A program made the translations under genes and the position numbers. Positions 2,836 through 9,486 of a stretch of DNA of 12,603 bases are shown here, one piece after another. The stretch is taken from the NCBI GenBank assembly GCA_946479055.1, contig CAMLEX010000055.1, forward strand, positions 1-12,603, given 5' to 3'. The notes beneath the pieces are model-generated. The model had not been told where the DNA came from. It searched no databases and was given only the letters and a program-made list of their open reading frames with translations. Position 1 is the first letter of the stretch, and each line of letters starts with the position of its first letter. Source of the DNA: an uncultured Bacteroidota bacterium. GTDB lineage: Bacteria; Bacteroidota; Bacteroidia; Chitinophagales; Chitinophagaceae.

Positions 2836-5028
2836 TTACTCTTTAATGGGGATCCTGACATTCAGGATGCAACCTTTGCCAGCTGACGCTTTTATATTAA
2901 CAGTGCCGTTATAAAACTGCGTCCGCTCATGGATATTTGATAATCCAATTCCCTGTCGTGTCTGATGTGGATCAAATCCTTTTCCATTGTCTTTCATCTC
3001 CAGGTTTACATACTCATTCGTAGATTGAATGCAAATTTGAGCAGTTGTTGCCTGGCTATGCTTGATAATATTTTTAAGCTGCTCCTGTACAATACGGAAT
3101 AACGTTATTTTTTTACCTGACGAAAGCAATTCGTCATTGATATCATGAACAAAGTTGATCTTCAAAGCACCGGTCATCTGTATGTCTGCAATAATCGCAT
3201 TGATATTCTCCGCCAGGTTTTCTTTTTTCAATTGTGGCGTCACTAACTCTTTGGATAATTTGCGGATTTCTTCTATTGCAAGATGAAGATATTCTATACT
3301 TTTTTCTTTTAGCTGTTTTTGCTCCTGGCCGGATGGATTCATCCTGTCAAAAAACAATTTTACAGTTGATAATATCTGGTTCACATTGTCATGTAGTTCA
3401 TGGCCGATCCGTGTTCTTTCTTTTTCCTGTACACGTATCACCGTTTCCGATATTTCTTTCTGCCGTTGCAGTCTTAAATCAGCTAATTCGTTTTCCAATT
3501 CCTTGAGCATTGATACATTCTGCAAACAACCGATCATTTTTACGGGAAGTCCATTTTCATATACTACAAATCCTTTGTCCTCTACATATTTGTAGGTGCC
3601 GTCAGCACATTTGAAACGATATTCATCATGCCATGATTGCTGATGGCTATCAGTTGCTTCTTTTATTTTATCGGCCAACCGATTGCGATCGTCCGGGTGA
3701 ATACGACGTAACCACCAGGAAAGCCCTTTTGAATTATCTTGATTGTAACCGATCATTTCCATCAGGGTTTCATTGCGGAATATCTGCCCTGTTTGCATAT
3801 CCCACTCCCAGATAGCATCTGATGTAGCACGGCTGAGGTTTAGCATCCGTTCCTTTACCTCTTTCAATTCTTTTTCCAACCGGCTTTTGTCGGGCAGGTT
3901 GATAGCCTGGGCGCCGACCATTTTTTTTCCCGAAACCGATTGAATAGGAAATATATTAATGTGAGAGACGGAATGGGTTCCATCCGCCCATTTGATCTTT
4001 TCCGAAAATTGAACAGGCTTGCCGGTTTCAAACACTTCTATATGTTTTTCATAAACGGCACGTGTTACGGCAGCAGGTACAAGGTCGGTGACTTTAACAC
4101 CAATGGATTCTTTTTCATTTATGCCAAAATGATGATAAAAAGCGCCGCTGGCAAAATGAAGAACAGCCTCTTCATCAAGAACCCATGCAAGAGTTGGGGT
4201 ACGTTCGAAGAAGGCGTTGATCAATGCTTTGCCTTGTTTAAGCTCATTCGATAACTGACGTTCAGAAGTGATATCAACAATATTGGATATTACAGAAAAA
4301 CACTTTTCGTCGACTAGGGGTTGTGAATTAAAGAGTATCCATTTTTTTTTGCCATTTTTCAGACGTATGACGAGGGTCTGTGTATGCGATTCGCCGGTTT
4401 TAATAGCTTTTACAAAAGAAGTTTCTTCAAAAGCAATGGGCTGGCCACATTCATTTGTGATACTCCATTCATTGTTCCAGAGTTGCCCAACATTCTTAAG
4501 TTTGTATAAGCTTTCCAATGTTGTCTCAAAAATACTGGCAGCTTTTTGATTGGCTGCAATCAATTCACCATTTATATCGTGAAAAATAAGTCCGCTAAGT
4601 CCTTCTACTATTAATTGACAATTATTTTTCAACAAATGGTTGAAACGATTCACTCTCTCATCGTCAACTATTTTATAACCAACGCATAAAAATTTTTTTT
4701 CTAAACCAACCCCGTCTTGTAAATAATTTATCTGCCATTTCATCGGGTGGTAATGCCCGTTCTTAATATATAACTCTATCCCCTTGTGATTTTGGTCATC
4801 ACCTGTTTCCTGTAATGCATTTTTAAAATCACCTATATGTGAAGGATGTACAAGATCAAAGAAATTAATGGATACTACGCGAGGATCATTCAACTCAAGA
4901 TTTCTTATCATGGTTGCATTCGCACAACTGATCAGGCCATTTTCATTGATCACCGTAAGAAACAGATTGGTTTGCCTACCGGTGTCGCCTATCATCTGTT
5001 TCAGAGTTGTCCAACTCGTTTTTTTCAT
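2836..5028 (-). CDS. soluble sensor histidine kinase with four PAS domains (HPK7/NarX-type core)
   Basis: A 730-residue kinase. No signal peptide or membrane helix is seen, so it should sense a cytoplasmic cue. Four PAS-like modules lie at about 17-120, 133-258, 268-378 and 395-508; the last has the WEWDMQTG and HPDDR features of the PAS_3 fold. A coiled coil (about 505-535) leads to a HisKA_3 dimerisation domain with ERTRIGHELHDNVNQ, phospho-accepting His546. The ATPase domain has the N box (LKNIIKHS, Asn653), G1 (DNGKGFD, Asp680) and G2 (GIGLSN, 693-698), all intact. Kinases of this class normally phosphorylate NarL/LuxR-type regulators, such as the one at 5775-6404. It is the last gene of the leftward signalling block, 216 bases after the receiver gene, and has its own candidate promoter (5119-5126) with a shared operator-like element upstream (5171-5190). 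The ligand is unknown. Confidence 0.96.
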   Translation of the reverse strand: MKKTSWTTLKQMIGDTGRQTNLFLTVINENGLISCANATMIRNLELNDPRVVSINFFDLVHPSHIGDFKNALQETGDDQNHKGIELYIKNGHYHPMKWQINYLQDGVGLEKKFLCVGYKIVDDERVNRFNHLLKNNCQLIVEGLSGLIFHDINGELIAANQKAASIFETTLESLYKLKNVGQLWNNEWSITNECGQPIAFEETSFVKAIKTGESHTQTLVIRLKNGKKKWILFNSQPLVDEKCFSVISNIVDITSERQLSNELKQGKALINAFFERTPTLAWVLDEEAVLHFASGAFYHHFGINEKESIGVKVTDLVPAAVTRAVYEKHIEVFETGKPVQFSEKIKWADGTHSVSHINIFPIQSVSGKKMVGAQAINLPDKSRLEKELKEVKERMLNLSRATSDAIWEWDMQTGQIFRNETLMEMIGYNQDNSKGLSWWLRRIHPDDRNRLADKIKEATDSHQQSWHDEYRFKCADGTYKYVEDKGFVVYENGLPVKMIGCLQNVSMLKELENELADLRLQRQKEISETVIRVQEKERTRIGHELHDNVNQILSTVKLFFDRMNPSGQEQKQLKEKSIEYLHLAIEEIRKLSKELVTPQLKKENLAENINAIIADIQMTGALKINFVHDINDELLSSGKKITLFRIVQEQLKNIIKHSQATTAQICIQSTNEYVNLEMKDNGKGFDPHQTRQGIGLSNIHERTQFYNGTVNIKASAGKGCILNVRIPIKE

Positions 5029-5118: not shown

Positions 5119-5126
5119 GCAAAATA
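5119..5126 (-). promoter_or_regulatory. candidate -7 box (TATTTTGC) of the soluble kinase gene
   Basis: On the minus strand this reads TATTTTGC, near the TAnnTTTG consensus but one base short. The same eight bases occur at 5684-5691 before the receiver gene, at almost the same distance (45 against 44 bases) from a shared palindrome. It lies 90 bases before the kinase start codon. Confidence 0.4.
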
Positions 5127-5170
5127 AAACAGTACAGGCCAGAAGACCCATAGAGGTTATATAAAGATTC

Positions 5171-5190
5171 TTGTAGTATAATAACTACAT
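5171..5190. promoter_or_regulatory. shared 20-bp palindromic element, copy A (upstream of the soluble kinase)
   Basis: Plus strand: TTGTAGTATAATAACTACAT, an inverted repeat TGTAG-N8-CTACA (perfect as TGTAGT-N6-ACTACA). It matches copy B at 5735-5754 (read on the minus strand) at 17 of 20 positions. It sits in the spacer between the receiver and kinase genes, with a TATTTTGC box 45 bases downstream in the kinase direction. The form suits a dimeric regulator's binding site. The stem is short, AT-rich and lacks a T run, so a terminator role is less likely. Confidence 0.6.
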
Positions 5191-5201
5191 GAAAACCCTT
5201 A

Positions 5202-5218
5202 ATATTCGTAACGAATAT
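5202..5218. repeat. 17-base palindrome downstream of the receiver gene
   Basis: ATATTCGT-A-ACGAATAT is a perfect eight-base inverted repeat around one central base, 26 bases past the receiver stop codon. As RNA it could fold with seven pairs and a three-base loop, followed on the minus strand by TAAGGGTTTTC, making a weak terminator. As DNA it resembles an operator. Confidence 0.4.
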
Positions 5219-5244
5219 ATGTATATCTGGCAATATCGCCTACC

Positions 5245-5637
5245 CTATTGGAATTCTTCTTCCTGGTTTTTTTCTGTTTCTATAATACGCCTGACTGCCT
5301 TAACCAATCCGGCAGGTAAAGAATCTTTGCTTATAAAATCTTCGGCACCGGCTTTTAAAACACGGGGTGCATATTGTTCTGCTGGGTAAGTGCTAAGAAT
5401 AATTACAGGTAATTTCTTTTTGGCTGCTTTAATTTTTTTGAGTGCAACAAATCCACCTCCGCCGGGCATGGCAAGATCAGAAATAACAAGGTCCCAGGTA
5501 TCAGATGAAACTTTTTCAAGAAGCATCATGGTGTCTGTTGCTTCTTCAACGTATATCCCCGGAAATTCCTCCAGCATTATTTTTTTTAATGCCTGCATAA
5601 CTACCGGGTGATCATCTGCAATAATAATCCTTAGCAT
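5245..5637 (-). CDS. stand-alone receiver (single-domain response regulator)
   Basis: A 130-residue cytoplasmic protein that is a CheY-like receiver from end to end. The acidic pocket is Asp8 and Asp9, the phospho-accepting Asp54 lies in VISDLAMPG, with Ser82 and Lys104 in the usual switch and phosphate-contact places, so it should be phosphorylated. No helix-turn-helix follows; the protein stops after the last receiver helix with an acidic tail (EKNQEEEFQ). The first 118 residues match the receiver of the neighbouring LuxR-type regulator at 55 positions without gaps, so it probably arose by duplication and loss of the output domain. The sequence past the stop does not read on into an output domain in this frame. 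It lies 137 bases after that regulator and has its own candidate promoter and a shared palindrome upstream. Likely roles, by inference, are phosphate sink, relay intermediate or protein-binding switch between the two kinases. Confidence 0.94.
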   Translation of the reverse strand: MLRIIIADDHPVVMQALKKIMLEEFPGIYVEEATDTMMLLEKVSSDTWDLVISDLAMPGGGGFVALKKIKAAKKKLPVIILSTYPAEQYAPRVLKAGAEDFISKDSLPAGLVKAVRRIIETEKNQEEEFQ

Positions 5638-5683
5638 ATTAATTATGGGGCGTTGATAACCAGAAAAAAACTGTACGCCGGTT

Positions 5684-5691
5684 GCAAAATA
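5684..5691 (-). promoter_or_regulatory. candidate -7 box (TATTTTGC) of the stand-alone receiver gene
   Basis: The minus strand reads TATTTTGCAA, the same box as at 5119-5126. It lies 44 bases downstream of palindrome copy B and 46 bases before the receiver start codon. It deviates from TAnnTTTG by one missing base; the repeated arrangement is the main support. Confidence 0.4.
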
Positions 5692-5734
5692 GATATTCGG
5701 TTGGAAGATACATGTAGCCTGAAAGTTTTAAATA

Positions 5735-5754
5735 ATGTAGAGTTTATACTACAA
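5735..5754. promoter_or_regulatory. shared 20-bp palindromic element, copy B (upstream of the stand-alone receiver)
   Basis: Minus strand: TTGTAGTATAAACTCTACAT, again TGTAG-N8-CTACA, identical to copy A (5171-5190, plus strand) at 17 of 20 positions. It lies 20 bases past the stop of the LuxR-type regulator gene and about 100 bases before the receiver start. A further TGTAG half site is at 5713-5717. It could also form a weak five-pair RNA hairpin followed by TTATTT, so a minor terminator role for the upstream gene is not excluded. Confidence 0.6.
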
Positions 5755-5774: not shown

Positions 5775-6404
5775 TTAAATAAGCTTCTTTTCAAGGGCAT
5801 ATCGTGTAAGGTCTGCATTGGACCGGATACCCATTTTTTCCAAAATACGGGACCGGTAAGTACTTACGGTAGTTGTGCTGAGAGATAACTGGCTGGCGAT
5901 ATCAGAAACAGATTTACCGGAAGCTATTAATTTAAATACATCAAACTCCCGATCAGAAAGCAATTCATGCGGCTGTTTGTTATTATTATTATGGAAGGCA
6001 TCAGCAAGTTTTTCCGCTATAGAGGGAGTAATGAATTTTTTTCCAAGTTGTACAGTTTGTACCGCTTTGATAATATCATCATGTATACTTTCTTTTTGGA
6101 GGTAACCGGAAGCTCCTGCTTTTAAAACCCTCAATGCATACTGATCTTCCGGATACATGCTCATGATCAATACCGGCAGATCCGGAGCTACTTGCTTTAT
6201 ATGTATCAGGGCATCGAGACCGCTGCGACCGGGCATATTCATATCACATATGACAATATTCCAGCCATTACTTATCACTTGCTTTATTAATCCTTCGGTA
6301 TCCGCTACCTCGCCGATGGTAGCAGAAGGATACTCTTCCAGCAAGAGCTGCTTTAGCCCTTTCCGTACAATAGCATGATCATCTGCAATTAGAATTTTTA
6401 ACAT
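5775..6404 (-). CDS. NarL/FixJ-type response regulator with LuxR DNA-binding domain
   Basis: A 209-residue two-domain transcription regulator. Receiver (about 1-120): Asp8, Asp9, phospho-accepting Asp54 in VICDMNMPG, Ser82, Lys104. A linker with an asparagine run (residues 139-142, from an ATT-type triplet repeat) joins it to a LuxR-type helix-turn-helix at about 146-205: LSDREFDVFKLIASGKSVSDIA followed by the recognition-helix region TTTVSTYRSRILEKM. This is a full-length, intact member of the family that dimerises and binds inverted half sites when phosphorylated. It starts 16 bases after the membrane kinase stop codon on the same strand, so the two form an operon and probably a cognate pair. 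It is the only DNA-binding protein in the block, so it is the natural candidate to bind the two shared palindromes; that is inference. Confidence 0.96.
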   Translation of the reverse strand: MLKILIADDHAIVRKGLKQLLLEEYPSATIGEVADTEGLIKQVISNGWNIVICDMNMPGRSGLDALIHIKQVAPDLPVLIMSMYPEDQYALRVLKAGASGYLQKESIHDDIIKAVQTVQLGKKFITPSIAEKLADAFHNNNNKQPHELLSDREFDVFKLIASGKSVSDIASQLSLSTTTVSTYRSRILEKMGIRSNADLTRYALEKKLI

Positions 6405-6420: not shown

Positions 6421-9400
6421 TTACAGGTCGGTTTCTGGTAATGGAACAATAACTGTTACGGTAGTGCCTTCTCCCTGGATGCCGGATATGCTGTACTGGC
6501 CACCCATCATCAGGGTTCTTTCTTTCATTCCCAATAAACCGAGTGTTTGTTTAGCCGCTTTTTTATCATCAAATCCTTCTCCATTATCCTTGATTATTAA
6601 AATTAGCTTTTTATCCTTTTGCTCAAGGCGTACAATTACTTTTTTTGCACCGGAATGCCGTGCAACATTCGTCAGTGACTCCTGGAAAATTCTGAATAAG
6701 CCGATCTTAAGACTACTGGGCAATTGTATTTCGGTTTCCGGTATGTATAATTCTTTTTCTATACCTGAACGCCGTTCAAAATCTTCCAGGAACCATTCCA
6801 GAGCAGCCAGCAAACCAAGATCATCCAGGAGGCTGGGCCGTAGTTCTGAAGCAATACGCCGCACAGATCTTACAATAGTATCTATTAATGTAAAAATCTC
6901 CTCCAATTTATCTTTTGCAATTTTATTACCGGGTTCAATTCTTTTGTTTAACCACGATACATCCATTTTCAATACAGTAAGTAGTTGTCCCAGTTCATCG
7001 TGAATTTCACGGGACATATGTAATCGTTCTTCTTCACGAACATTCTGAAGATGTCCTGTTAATGTTCGGATAGCATCATAGGATTCTTTCAGCTTTTCTT
7101 CGGCAATATGTTTTTCAGTCACATCATTAGCCAGTACAAGACGAGTCTGCTGTCCTTCGTAATTAATATCATACGTAATAATATCAACATAAAGTATAGT
7201 TCCGTTTTTCTTTTTGTGACGCCATATACCTGCATGATGAATGCCGCGGAATGTTGTATTGGTGGCGGCTTTAAATTTATCAATGTCTTCGTTTGGCCTG
7301 AAGTCATAAACTGTGAGATTCAGAAATTCTTCCCTGGTATATTCGTATTGCAACAAGGCGGCTTTGTTTACATCAATGATGTTGTACTCAGGCAGGTTCA
7401 GCATCCACATGGGCAATGGATTACTTTCAAAAAGAAGTTTATATTTCTGTTCGGATGCAATTAATCCTGCCTCTGCTTTTTTGCGTTCGGCAATATCAAT
7501 ACCGTTGCCTAATAAGCATGGCTTTCCTTCAAAATTGATCATTACAGCTTTAAAATAGTAAGGAACCTGTTTACCGGATTTGGTTAAAAAATTCGCTTCC
7601 GCATCGTTAATGCCTTTCAGAAATACACCTTCGATTCTTCCGGCGATATAATTCTTTTGCTCCTCTGAAAAAAAATCAGTTGGATGCATTCCCGCAATTT
7701 CTTCCGCAGAATACCCGGTTGCTGTTTCAAATTCTTTGTTCCAACGAATGAACTTTCCATTGGCATCAAAAAAATAAAATACGCCCGGCAAGCTATCAAT
7801 CAATTTATCTGCAAGGTCTTTTGCTTTATTGATCTCGGTTTCCGCCTTTTTCTGTTCTGAAATATCCCGGATAAAAATGGATAATCCATTTGCAGATGGA
7901 TAAATATAATTTGACTGCCATAAATCAAGCGGAGCGTAGTAGTCTGTGTTGCTGACAAACTGTTGCTCATTCATGGCTTGGTAGCAAGCCTGATAGGTAT
8001 GCGAATCAAGAAGCATAGGAAATTCTTCCCATATTTTTTTTCCGATCAATGAATCTGGTTCACGGTGAGTGAGCTCCCCGGCCTTTTTATTTACATAAGT
8101 ATACCGGAAGTCTTTATCCAAAGCAATGAAACCATCGGTTACTCTTTCAAAAATTTCTGTCAGCTCTCCTGTTTTCTCTTCTACCTGGCGGGACAGTTCC
8201 TCATTAAAAGTTTTTAGTTTGTCTTCTATTTGTTTTCTTTCAGTGATATCGCGGATGAAACCGACAAAAAATTGTTTTTGGTCCAGCAACAAGGGTGATA
8301 TCCTCAGTGAAACATCTACTTCTGACAGATCTTTTCTGATAGCCCAAAGATCAACTGTCCGGCCAAGAATAGTGTTTTCCCCAGTAGCAAGAAAACGCCT
8401 CAATCCTTTTCTATGTGCTTCTCTGAATTGTTCGGGAATAATTAAATCACTCAATAATTGTCCTTTTACTTCCTGTTCATTCCAACCAAAAAGTTTTTCC
8501 GCTTCCGGATTCCATTTAGTTACTATACCATTGCTATCCATAACCACTACAGCATCGGGAGCATTATGGAAAATAGCCTGTATATGTTGTTCGCTATCCC
8601 GGAGAGCATCTTCCGTTTGTTTTTTCAACATATCCCGCTTATTCAGTAACCAGGCATTGTACCATGTAATGCAAGCAAAAATGATAATAATGCTCACTAC
8701 GTAGAGTGCAGTGCCAAATTCGCCGCTAGAAATACCAGCCCAATTTCCTCCTAACTGTAAAAGACCTAAAACCGAAGGCACAATGATGGCTGCCGGAAGT
8801 AATAAACGGGCCATTATGCTTCCACTTAAAACACTGGTAAACTCCTTCATTATTCCTTTACCGGGATCCGAAAAAAGAACAGTTATCGAAAACAGGAAAA
8901 AACATAAAGCAGTTGAAGGCGCCATGGAAACATGGATGAAAAATCCGTAAATTCTTTCCACCTGGTATAAGTATTCTAATAAAGAAAACAAGCTCAGTAT
9001 TGCTATTGCGAGCACTAAATAATGGGAGAGTTGATATTTCATTGCTTTATACCGTCCCAGCATTAATGAGGTGCCGGCCAATACAAAACAAATGGATGTA
9101 GCAAGCGCCATGTAGCTAGGTAAAGTGCCATCCGTTCCCTTCAATAATTTATCGGCATATAAAAAAGAATCGGCATGTATATCAAAACCCAAAACATGGT
9201 CGCCAAATTTTAGGAGTCCCGTTAATACTACCAAGGCCGCGAAAGTCCAGGCTGCTTTTCCTGGCGTATCGCTTTTGAACAACCATGAAGAGAACCCTAA
9301 TAAGATAAAACTAACAGCAGTCAGCGGGTTCATGGCTACCGGTGGCAAAAGAAATGTTTTCCAAAAAGCTATGTTGAACTGCCAGCCTATCAACACAAAC

Positions 9401-9486
9401 AACGGTATTATTATGAGCCCCGCAACGAGATAGCTGGACCATCGCTTTAATTTTAGAGCTAATTCTGTGTCAAGCGGTAACTGCAT
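6421..9486 (-). CDS. membrane sensor histidine kinase, 8 TM plus four PAS domains (HPK7-type core)
   Basis: A 1021-residue inner-membrane kinase. About eight hydrophobic helices fill residues 17-282 (near 18-36, 53-70, 78-95, 122-143, 153-175, 186-205, 226-246, 259-281). Within them a P-x-TA-x-x-F-like motif recurs at 53-60 (NPLTAVSF) and 190-197 (PSTALCFF), with a looser copy at 124-134. Four PAS modules follow at about 297-415, 440-545, 557-667 and 680-792, the first ending in the typical FIRDITERK. The HisKA_3 domain has REIHDELGQ with phospho-accepting His829. The ATPase domain shows the N box (ESLTNVARHS, Asn940), G1 (DNGEGFD, Asp967) and G2 (LGLLGMKER, Gly983 and Gly986). All catalytic motifs are intact. 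It is first in the leftward block and in an operon with the LuxR-type regulator. The membrane part is not a named domain I can place, so the signal is unknown. Confidence 0.96.
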   Translation of the reverse strand: MQLPLDTELALKLKRWSSYLVAGLIIIPLFVLIGWQFNIAFWKTFLLPPVAMNPLTAVSFILLGFSSWLFKSDTPGKAAWTFAALVVLTGLLKFGDHVLGFDIHADSFLYADKLLKGTDGTLPSYMALATSICFVLAGTSLMLGRYKAMKYQLSHYLVLAIAILSLFSLLEYLYQVERIYGFFIHVSMAPSTALCFFLFSITVLFSDPGKGIMKEFTSVLSGSIMARLLLPAAIIVPSVLGLLQLGGNWAGISSGEFGTALYVVSIIIIFACITWYNAWLLNKRDMLKKQTEDALRDSEQHIQAIFHNAPDAVVVMDSNGIVTKWNPEAEKLFGWNEQEVKGQLLSDLIIPEQFREAHRKGLRRFLATGENTILGRTVDLWAIRKDLSEVDVSLRISPLLLDQKQFFVGFIRDITERKQIEDKLKTFNEELSRQVEEKTGELTEIFERVTDGFIALDKDFRYTYVNKKAGELTHREPDSLIGKKIWEEFPMLLDSHTYQACYQAMNEQQFVSNTDYYAPLDLWQSNYIYPSANGLSIFIRDISEQKKAETEINKAKDLADKLIDSLPGVFYFFDANGKFIRWNKEFETATGYSAEEIAGMHPTDFFSEEQKNYIAGRIEGVFLKGINDAEANFLTKSGKQVPYYFKAVMINFEGKPCLLGNGIDIAERKKAEAGLIASEQKYKLLFESNPLPMWMLNLPEYNIIDVNKAALLQYEYTREEFLNLTVYDFRPNEDIDKFKAATNTTFRGIHHAGIWRHKKKNGTILYVDIITYDINYEGQQTRLVLANDVTEKHIAEEKLKESYDAIRTLTGHLQNVREEERLHMSREIHDELGQLLTVLKMDVSWLNKRIEPGNKIAKDKLEEIFTLIDTIVRSVRRIASELRPSLLDDLGLLAALEWFLEDFERRSGIEKELYIPETEIQLPSSLKIGLFRIFQESLTNVARHSGAKKVIVRLEQKDKKLILIIKDNGEGFDDKKAAKQTLGLLGMKERTLMMGGQYSISGIQGEGTTVTVIVPLPETDL

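Follow-up and report, generated by a model that had tools for sequence, protein, structure and literature searches.

The window, by which we mean the whole 12,603-nucleotide stretch of DNA analysed here, carries on its minus strand a group of two-component genes and sites in the order kinase 1, regulator, operator 1, receiver, operator 2 and kinase 2. Histidine kinase 1 (6421-9486, minus strand, 1021 aa), a PAS-rich HisKA_3/HATPase protein, is encoded directly upstream of a LuxR/NarL-type response regulator of 209 aa (5775-6404, minus strand), which combines a receiver domain with a GerE HTH and is the binder proposed below. Both domains score above the Pfam cut-off (PF00072, 86.8 bits; PF00196, 66.2 bits), which places the protein among NarL/FixJ (LuxR-type) regulators. 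Kinase 1 is likely the cognate kinase of this regulator, and in 45 of the 60 family loci described below, the window included, a kinase resembling it stops no more than 150 bp from where the regulator begins. The two genes proposed as targets are those of a stand-alone receiver of 130 aa (5245-5637, minus strand) and of histidine kinase 2, also a PAS-rich HisKA_3/HATPase protein (2836-5028, minus strand, 730 aa). The receiver had been described from the sequence as a paralogue of the regulator, and over 118 aa it is indeed 47% identical to the receiver domain of that protein. The alignment matches its ADDH motif, the SDLAMPG aspartate, a serine and a lysine with the domain, so phosphorylation of the stand-alone receiver is probable. 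A search of viral contigs with the stand-alone receiver returned no relative. At its left end, the window has a G+C content of 0.667 over positions 1-300, versus 0.29-0.46 in the other 300-bp segments; this end is either foreign DNA or an assembly junction, and the open minus-strand frame at 3-314 has no Pfam match.

Two palindromes lie in front of the proposed targets. The 20-bp pattern TTGTAGTATAANNNCTACAT matches exactly twice, at 5171-5190 on the plus strand and at 5735-5754 on the minus strand, as claimed in the sequence-only reading, and scanning the window with up to three mismatches gave no third site. Dinucleotide shuffles contained on average 0.04 matches, and none of 200 reached two. 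The dyad TGTAG-N8-CTACA is present in both copies and its symmetry was verified. Two parts of that earlier description need amending. The copies do differ at three of 20 positions, giving the 17/20 identity announced, but this requires that, with respect to the following gene, one copy be read in the reverse sense of the other; likewise, the palindrome stands as the conserved element, but the real unit is an 18-bp core and not the 20-bp motif. The inner eight bases of this core are weakly kept across the sites of 38 relatives (best T 0.76, A 0.63, T 0.61). Putative operator 1 (5736-5753, minus strand, core TGTAGTATAAACTCTACA) is located between the regulator and the stand-alone receiver and is kept in relatives, and putative operator 2 (5172-5189, minus strand, core TGTAGTTATTATACTACA read towards the kinase) is located about 55 bp past the receiver stop. 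The layout of two palindromes was correct but overlooked a third half-site, CTACA at 5713-5717 (minus strand), which lies 18 nt past operator 1 and would cover roughly -38 to -34 relative to the predicted start; 18 nt past operator 2, the kinase side has only CTATG, a weak half-site (5149-5153, minus strand).

Each core is followed by the octamer TATTTTGC, at a gap of 44 nt on the receiver side (5684-5691, minus strand) and of 45 nt on the kinase side (5119-5126, minus strand), exactly as first reported, and the window holds no other exact copy. The octamer alone is common (1.47 copies expected, at least two in 83 of 200 shuffles), and what is unusual about it is its constant position relative to the core, not its presence. 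We predict that the two copies are the -7 boxes of the receiver and kinase promoters, with starts near 5679 and 5114, respectively, judged by the -12 to -5 placing of a related box described in Flavobacterium (PMC9723704).

The core is found behind the regulator gene in many relatives. A contig search with the regulator provided the best 80 loci, which together with the window make 81 (one of them, L010, is cut by a contig end and has no stop). An exact core occurs within 150 bp past the regulator stop in 14 of the 81 loci, that is 14 in 10,560 positions versus 13 in the other 1,068,382, a 109-fold enrichment over 1.08 Mb; with at most one mismatch, 23 cores fall within this distance versus 34 elsewhere. 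This count leaves out the exact core of L009, which overlaps the stop, and L025 was read with a spurious early stop. Three of the 14 loci are labelled as non-Bacteroidota (L049, Nitrospinaceae; L053, Nitrospirae; L061, Melioribacter, Ignavibacteriota), and in the Melioribacter locus a stand-alone receiver gene (PF00072, 57.7 bits) again comes next.

A second sample consisted of 117 genomes from the family of Flavihumibacter solisilvae (G003, Chitinophagaceae). The regulator matched at E <= 1e-60 in 44 of them, at 60 places; 59 places were fetched with their flanks and give, with the window, 60 regulators (the match at G095:C4:32357, inside a fetched stretch, is not counted apart). Between -20 and +220 of the regulator stop, the core was exact in 22/60, present with at most one mismatch in 38/60 and with at most two in 40/60. 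Six scrambled control patterns gave no exact match at the 60 regulators, counts of 0, 0, 0, 0, 0 and 2 with at most one mismatch and of 0 to 16 with at most two, the contrast at two mismatches being weaker than that at one. The motif had been expected to persist in the spacers of relatives, and it does so at many loci; the counts are not independent, because the 60 regulators are kin and overlap with the best-80 set. The remaining 22 regulators have no core within 220 nt of the stop, seven of these have a downstream receiver, and in two of the seven (L137 and L149) a site is present further on. A core accompanies 26 of the 33 loci with a downstream receiver versus 12 of the 27 without (Fisher p 0.008, which is optimistic because the loci are related), and the association of the site with the receiver is moderate. 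Taken at the level of sequence, these data indicate that the palindrome is a genuine, conserved control site.

The genes behind the sites were examined for the 71 cores that carry no more than one mismatch and lie within 4 kb past a regulator stop; 33 of these are more than 220 nt away from it. A gene in the same direction was called within 450 nt of 58 of the 71 (57 distinct proteins), and 39 of these 58 match a receiver profile built from the regulators. Thirty-six of the matching proteins are under 170 aa, which makes a stand-alone receiver the commonest following gene; the remaining three are the full-length regulators of L134 and L139 and a 610-aa protein of L161, a weak match. ORFs were called mechanically, and the receivers of L127 and L138 were missed, so that of the 13 sites lacking a called gene two precede receivers as well. 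Clustering of the motif at two-component genes, proposed at the outset, is what we find, the genes behind the sites being mostly two-component genes. Further putative targets include histidine kinases (the window and L150), a PAS protein (L172; L236), an outer-membrane barrel protein (L141; PF13568) and GH5 cellulases (L172 and L177; PF00150, 135.1 and 112.4 bits); the gene behind the L016 site has no Pfam match. In L170, L172 and L177, the operator is followed by related proteins of 355-364 aa whose N-terminus is signal-like, that of L170 resembling the two GH5 cellulases.

The arrangement around operator 2 varies. Five loci (L127, L128, L129, L131 and L134) carry two operators together with a relative of kinase 2; there, operator 2 is followed by a second small receiver and then by the kinase, and L013 has the same order, the second small receiver lying between operator and kinase. 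The second operator stands directly before the kinase in the window and in L002, and a second small receiver appears to have been lost in the window's line. L172 holds four exact copies, two of which each precede a small receiver; there, two consecutive small receivers with their own exact copies are followed by the copies before the GH5 cellulase and the PAS protein. Among 16 loci examined, L153 and L155 have no ATG ORF of at least 25 aa within 450 nt and no receiver within 3 kb past the stop, the site persisting there with no same-direction gene or receiver nearby; a small-RNA target, as for GacA, is possible in these two loci. L142 shows separate receiver-like stretches 264-377 and 852-1139 nt past the regulator stop, the first of which may be a decayed receiver because no full open frame surrounds it.

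In our view, the LuxR/NarL-type regulator encoded at 5775-6404 and its orthologues probably use TGTAG-N8-CTACA as their operator, through which the receiver and kinase 2 would be activated. The features expected of an operator at the sequence level are all present, namely a dyad, conservation, a fixed distance to promoter boxes and co-occurrence with the regulator. The neighbouring regulator had already been named as the likely binder, a proposal that gains support here.

The fixed distance is apparent across the 71 sites. After the core, CTACA occurs at offset 18 in 12 sites and at 17 in four, the shorter CTA at offset 18 in 24 sites and again at offsets 41 (14 sites) and 40 (10 sites), and TAnTTTG at offset 44 in eight, at 68 in five and at 67 in four. 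None of 500 shuffles reached the top offset counts of these three elements, and none of 1000 reached the eight TAnTTTG boxes at offset 44. TAnnTTGY falls within offsets 42-46 or 64-71, ranges picked after inspection of the data, in 22 of the 71 sites (1000 shuffles: mean 0.89, maximum 5); the other 49 have no recognisable -7 box in these ranges. The two registers are about 23 nt apart, the same spacing as between the two half-site positions, and both predicted window promoters belong to the first register. The housekeeping box TAnnTTTG gave no register peak, with two occurrences at offset 67, a count that 106 of 1000 shuffles also reached. In 171 regions upstream of genes in general at these loci, which may include some regulated promoters, TAnnTTTGC is enriched 6.9-fold and TAnTTTGC 4.7-fold over shuffles, and since both are enriched there, an alternative sigma factor is not required.

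The register also bears on the sign of control. The regulator could bind and repress, which would make the palindrome a negative-feedback operator on receiver and kinase; such a role is compatible with the position of the sites, and a -33 element would coincide in part with the half-site at -38 to -34. Against this, the distance from each site down to the -7 box takes fixed values, in two registers, and the box has the short form TAnTTTG, not TAnnTTTG, as activator-dependent promoters might show. Repression seems unlikely to us, and from this architecture activation by the regulator is favoured.

Genome-wide, the motif is not a dispersed repeat, as five genomes of relatives contain 12, 2, 4, 6 and 2 exact copies, close to the 7, 11, 6, 5 and 8 of the reversed control. 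An extended pattern (core, N17-18 and CTA) was sought in the 117 family genomes, again with the reversed pattern as a control. It matched 40 times versus 15 for the control in the 44 genomes with the regulator, and 23 times versus 22 in the 73 genomes without a detected regulator, some of which may hold one because up to 26 candidates per genome were scored. At least one match was present in 24/44 and 19/73 genomes, respectively (Fisher p 0.003, uncorrected for kinship), and a control match in 11/44 and 20/73. Fifteen of the 40 matches lie within 1 kb of the regulator gene; the 25 unlinked ones exceed the 15 of the control modestly, so the regulon looks small in most of the 44 genomes, and the regulator's own locus looks like a main target in most of them. 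Unlinked sites precede Pfam-confirmed small receivers in L201, L217 and L232, and the gene behind that of L233 was not confirmed as a receiver by Pfam.

These distributions can be set against the idea that another co-inherited regulator, a NarL-type paralogue encoded elsewhere in the genome, binds the sites while the neighbouring regulator acts elsewhere. First-look paralogue candidates number 7 to 115 per genome among the 64 genomes listed, and similar palindromes stand before other NarL-type genes in L193, L195 and L207, whose genomes have no close match to the window regulator (the L195 gene has receiver and GerE domains by Pfam; those of L193 and L207 were assigned by eye). Yet copies cluster directly behind the window-type regulator gene, genomes without a detected regulator stay at the background level given above, and site presence drops with identity to the window regulator, a core with at most one mismatch being found in 15/18 loci at 65% identity or more, in 14/19 at 55-65% and in 9/23 below 55%. 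We regard a paralogue as quite an unlikely binder. Separately, TGTAG-N8-CTACA palindromes were noticed close to the starts of ArsR-type genes in L087, L093 and L188 (assigned by Pfam HTH_5 for L087 and L188, and by eye for L093), where they are probably the ArsR protein's own operator with a similar core; an ArsR binder for the window sites was rejected, none of the nine scanned window proteins being ArsR-type.

It is very improbable that the palindrome acts in RNA, as a hairpin or weak terminator behind each gene, and not as protein-binding DNA: in the region 5160-5200, operator 2 does lie inside a longer predicted hairpin (-11.1 kcal/mol, equalled by 0 of 200 shuffles), but operator 1 folds at shuffle level (z -0.5, 60/200 as good), the 71 sites show a fixed sequence without covariation, with inner pairing at chance and three flanking pairs alone in slight excess (reached by 12 to 18 of 300 shuffles), and a terminator leaves the fixed downstream half-site and -7 box unexplained. 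An RNA hairpin was rejected as the conserved feature on these folding and covariation results, as was a described RNA family, the window having no Rfam match at the gathering score. The hairpin at operator 2 is perhaps also the terminator of the receiver gene.

Returning to the regulator as activator, we start from what is observed, the sites, their conservation, the fixed promoter register and their link to the regulator and receiver genes, and infer from it the identity of the binder, its need for phosphorylation, activation and the role of the extra receiver. The phosphorylated regulator would bind, as a dimer, the palindrome centred near -66 of two promoters, and the receiver promoter would offer a further half-site at -38 to -34, the position expected of a -33 element. 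The bound regulator would recruit RNA polymerase to the -7 box TAnTTTG, and the stand-alone receiver and the second kinase would be switched on. The output regulator would thereby reset the make-up of its own signalling circuit, a feedback in which the extra receiver might compete for phosphate or carry a separate output.

To our knowledge, Bacteroidota have many NarL-type regulators per genome, few of them with a defined operator. One orthologous group now gains a concrete site, a promoter layout and a testable target list, stand-alone receivers are pointed to as feedback-controlled parts, and there is a hint that the -7 box of these promoters lacks one base of the housekeeping form. If a wider reading is true, that of the old GacA-like pair to which we give somewhat less than even odds below, batteries of stand-alone receivers and extra kinases would be under the output regulator's own control, with half-sites about 23 nt apart meeting, in either of two registers, the short -7 box, and, because added receivers bring their own operator copy (L172), circuits could therefore be rewired by duplication.

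Elements of this arrangement have counterparts in known systems. In Flavobacterium, SM5 promoters carry TAnnTTGY, one base shorter than the housekeeping TAnnTTTG, and SM4-6 are judged most likely to be under alternative sigma factors (PMC9723704); TATTTTGC fits TAnnTTGY, whereas TAnTTTGC is here also enriched upstream of genes at large. The operator TGTAG-N8-CTACA is not described among the matches listed from the open-licence literature, at the level of titles and abstract starts; PMC3333781 mentions NarL once. The principle is known, and the site and its layout seem undescribed in the open-licence literature searched. The CrbR/ACTU motif of acetate-use genes likewise pairs a LuxR-type response regulator with an inverted repeat, reported as imperfect and directly upstream of the promoter (PMC5715377), but it differs in sequence and targets and belongs to Gammaproteobacteria. 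Phosphate-sink two-component systems, in which an extra receiver is described as competing for phosphate (PMC4214558), have the extra receiver in common with the window, where a sink role of the receiver is putative.

The closest likeness is to GacA/UvrY/SirA. The best NCBIfam model for the regulator is the UvrY/SirA/GacA equivalog NF007018, with 171 bits, below the cut-off of 280 and versus 450.9 bits for E. coli UvrY; the regulator is 31% identical to the latter, with TVSTYRSRILEKM facing TVNSYRYRMFSKL. The GacA/UvrY box is given as an 18-bp palindrome, TGTAAG-N6-CTTACA, bound by UvrY upstream of csrB/csrC (PMC4682653; PMC3171408). The window core does not match this box. It has the same 18-bp length and the outer TGTA...TACA, and the protein that binds the box is likewise a response regulator of this kind, but the core reads TGTAG/CTACA and lacks AAG/CTT, indicating resemblance, not membership. 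The csrB box is placed near -183, whereas the window sites are predicted near -66, and the described UvrY targets are Csr RNAs, whereas the putative window targets are receivers and kinases. We tentatively suggest, as a possibility somewhat short of even, that the regulator and its palindrome are an old GacA-like regulator-operator pair with its own box, Chitinophagaceae-wide, reaching other phyla and largely dedicated to signalling.
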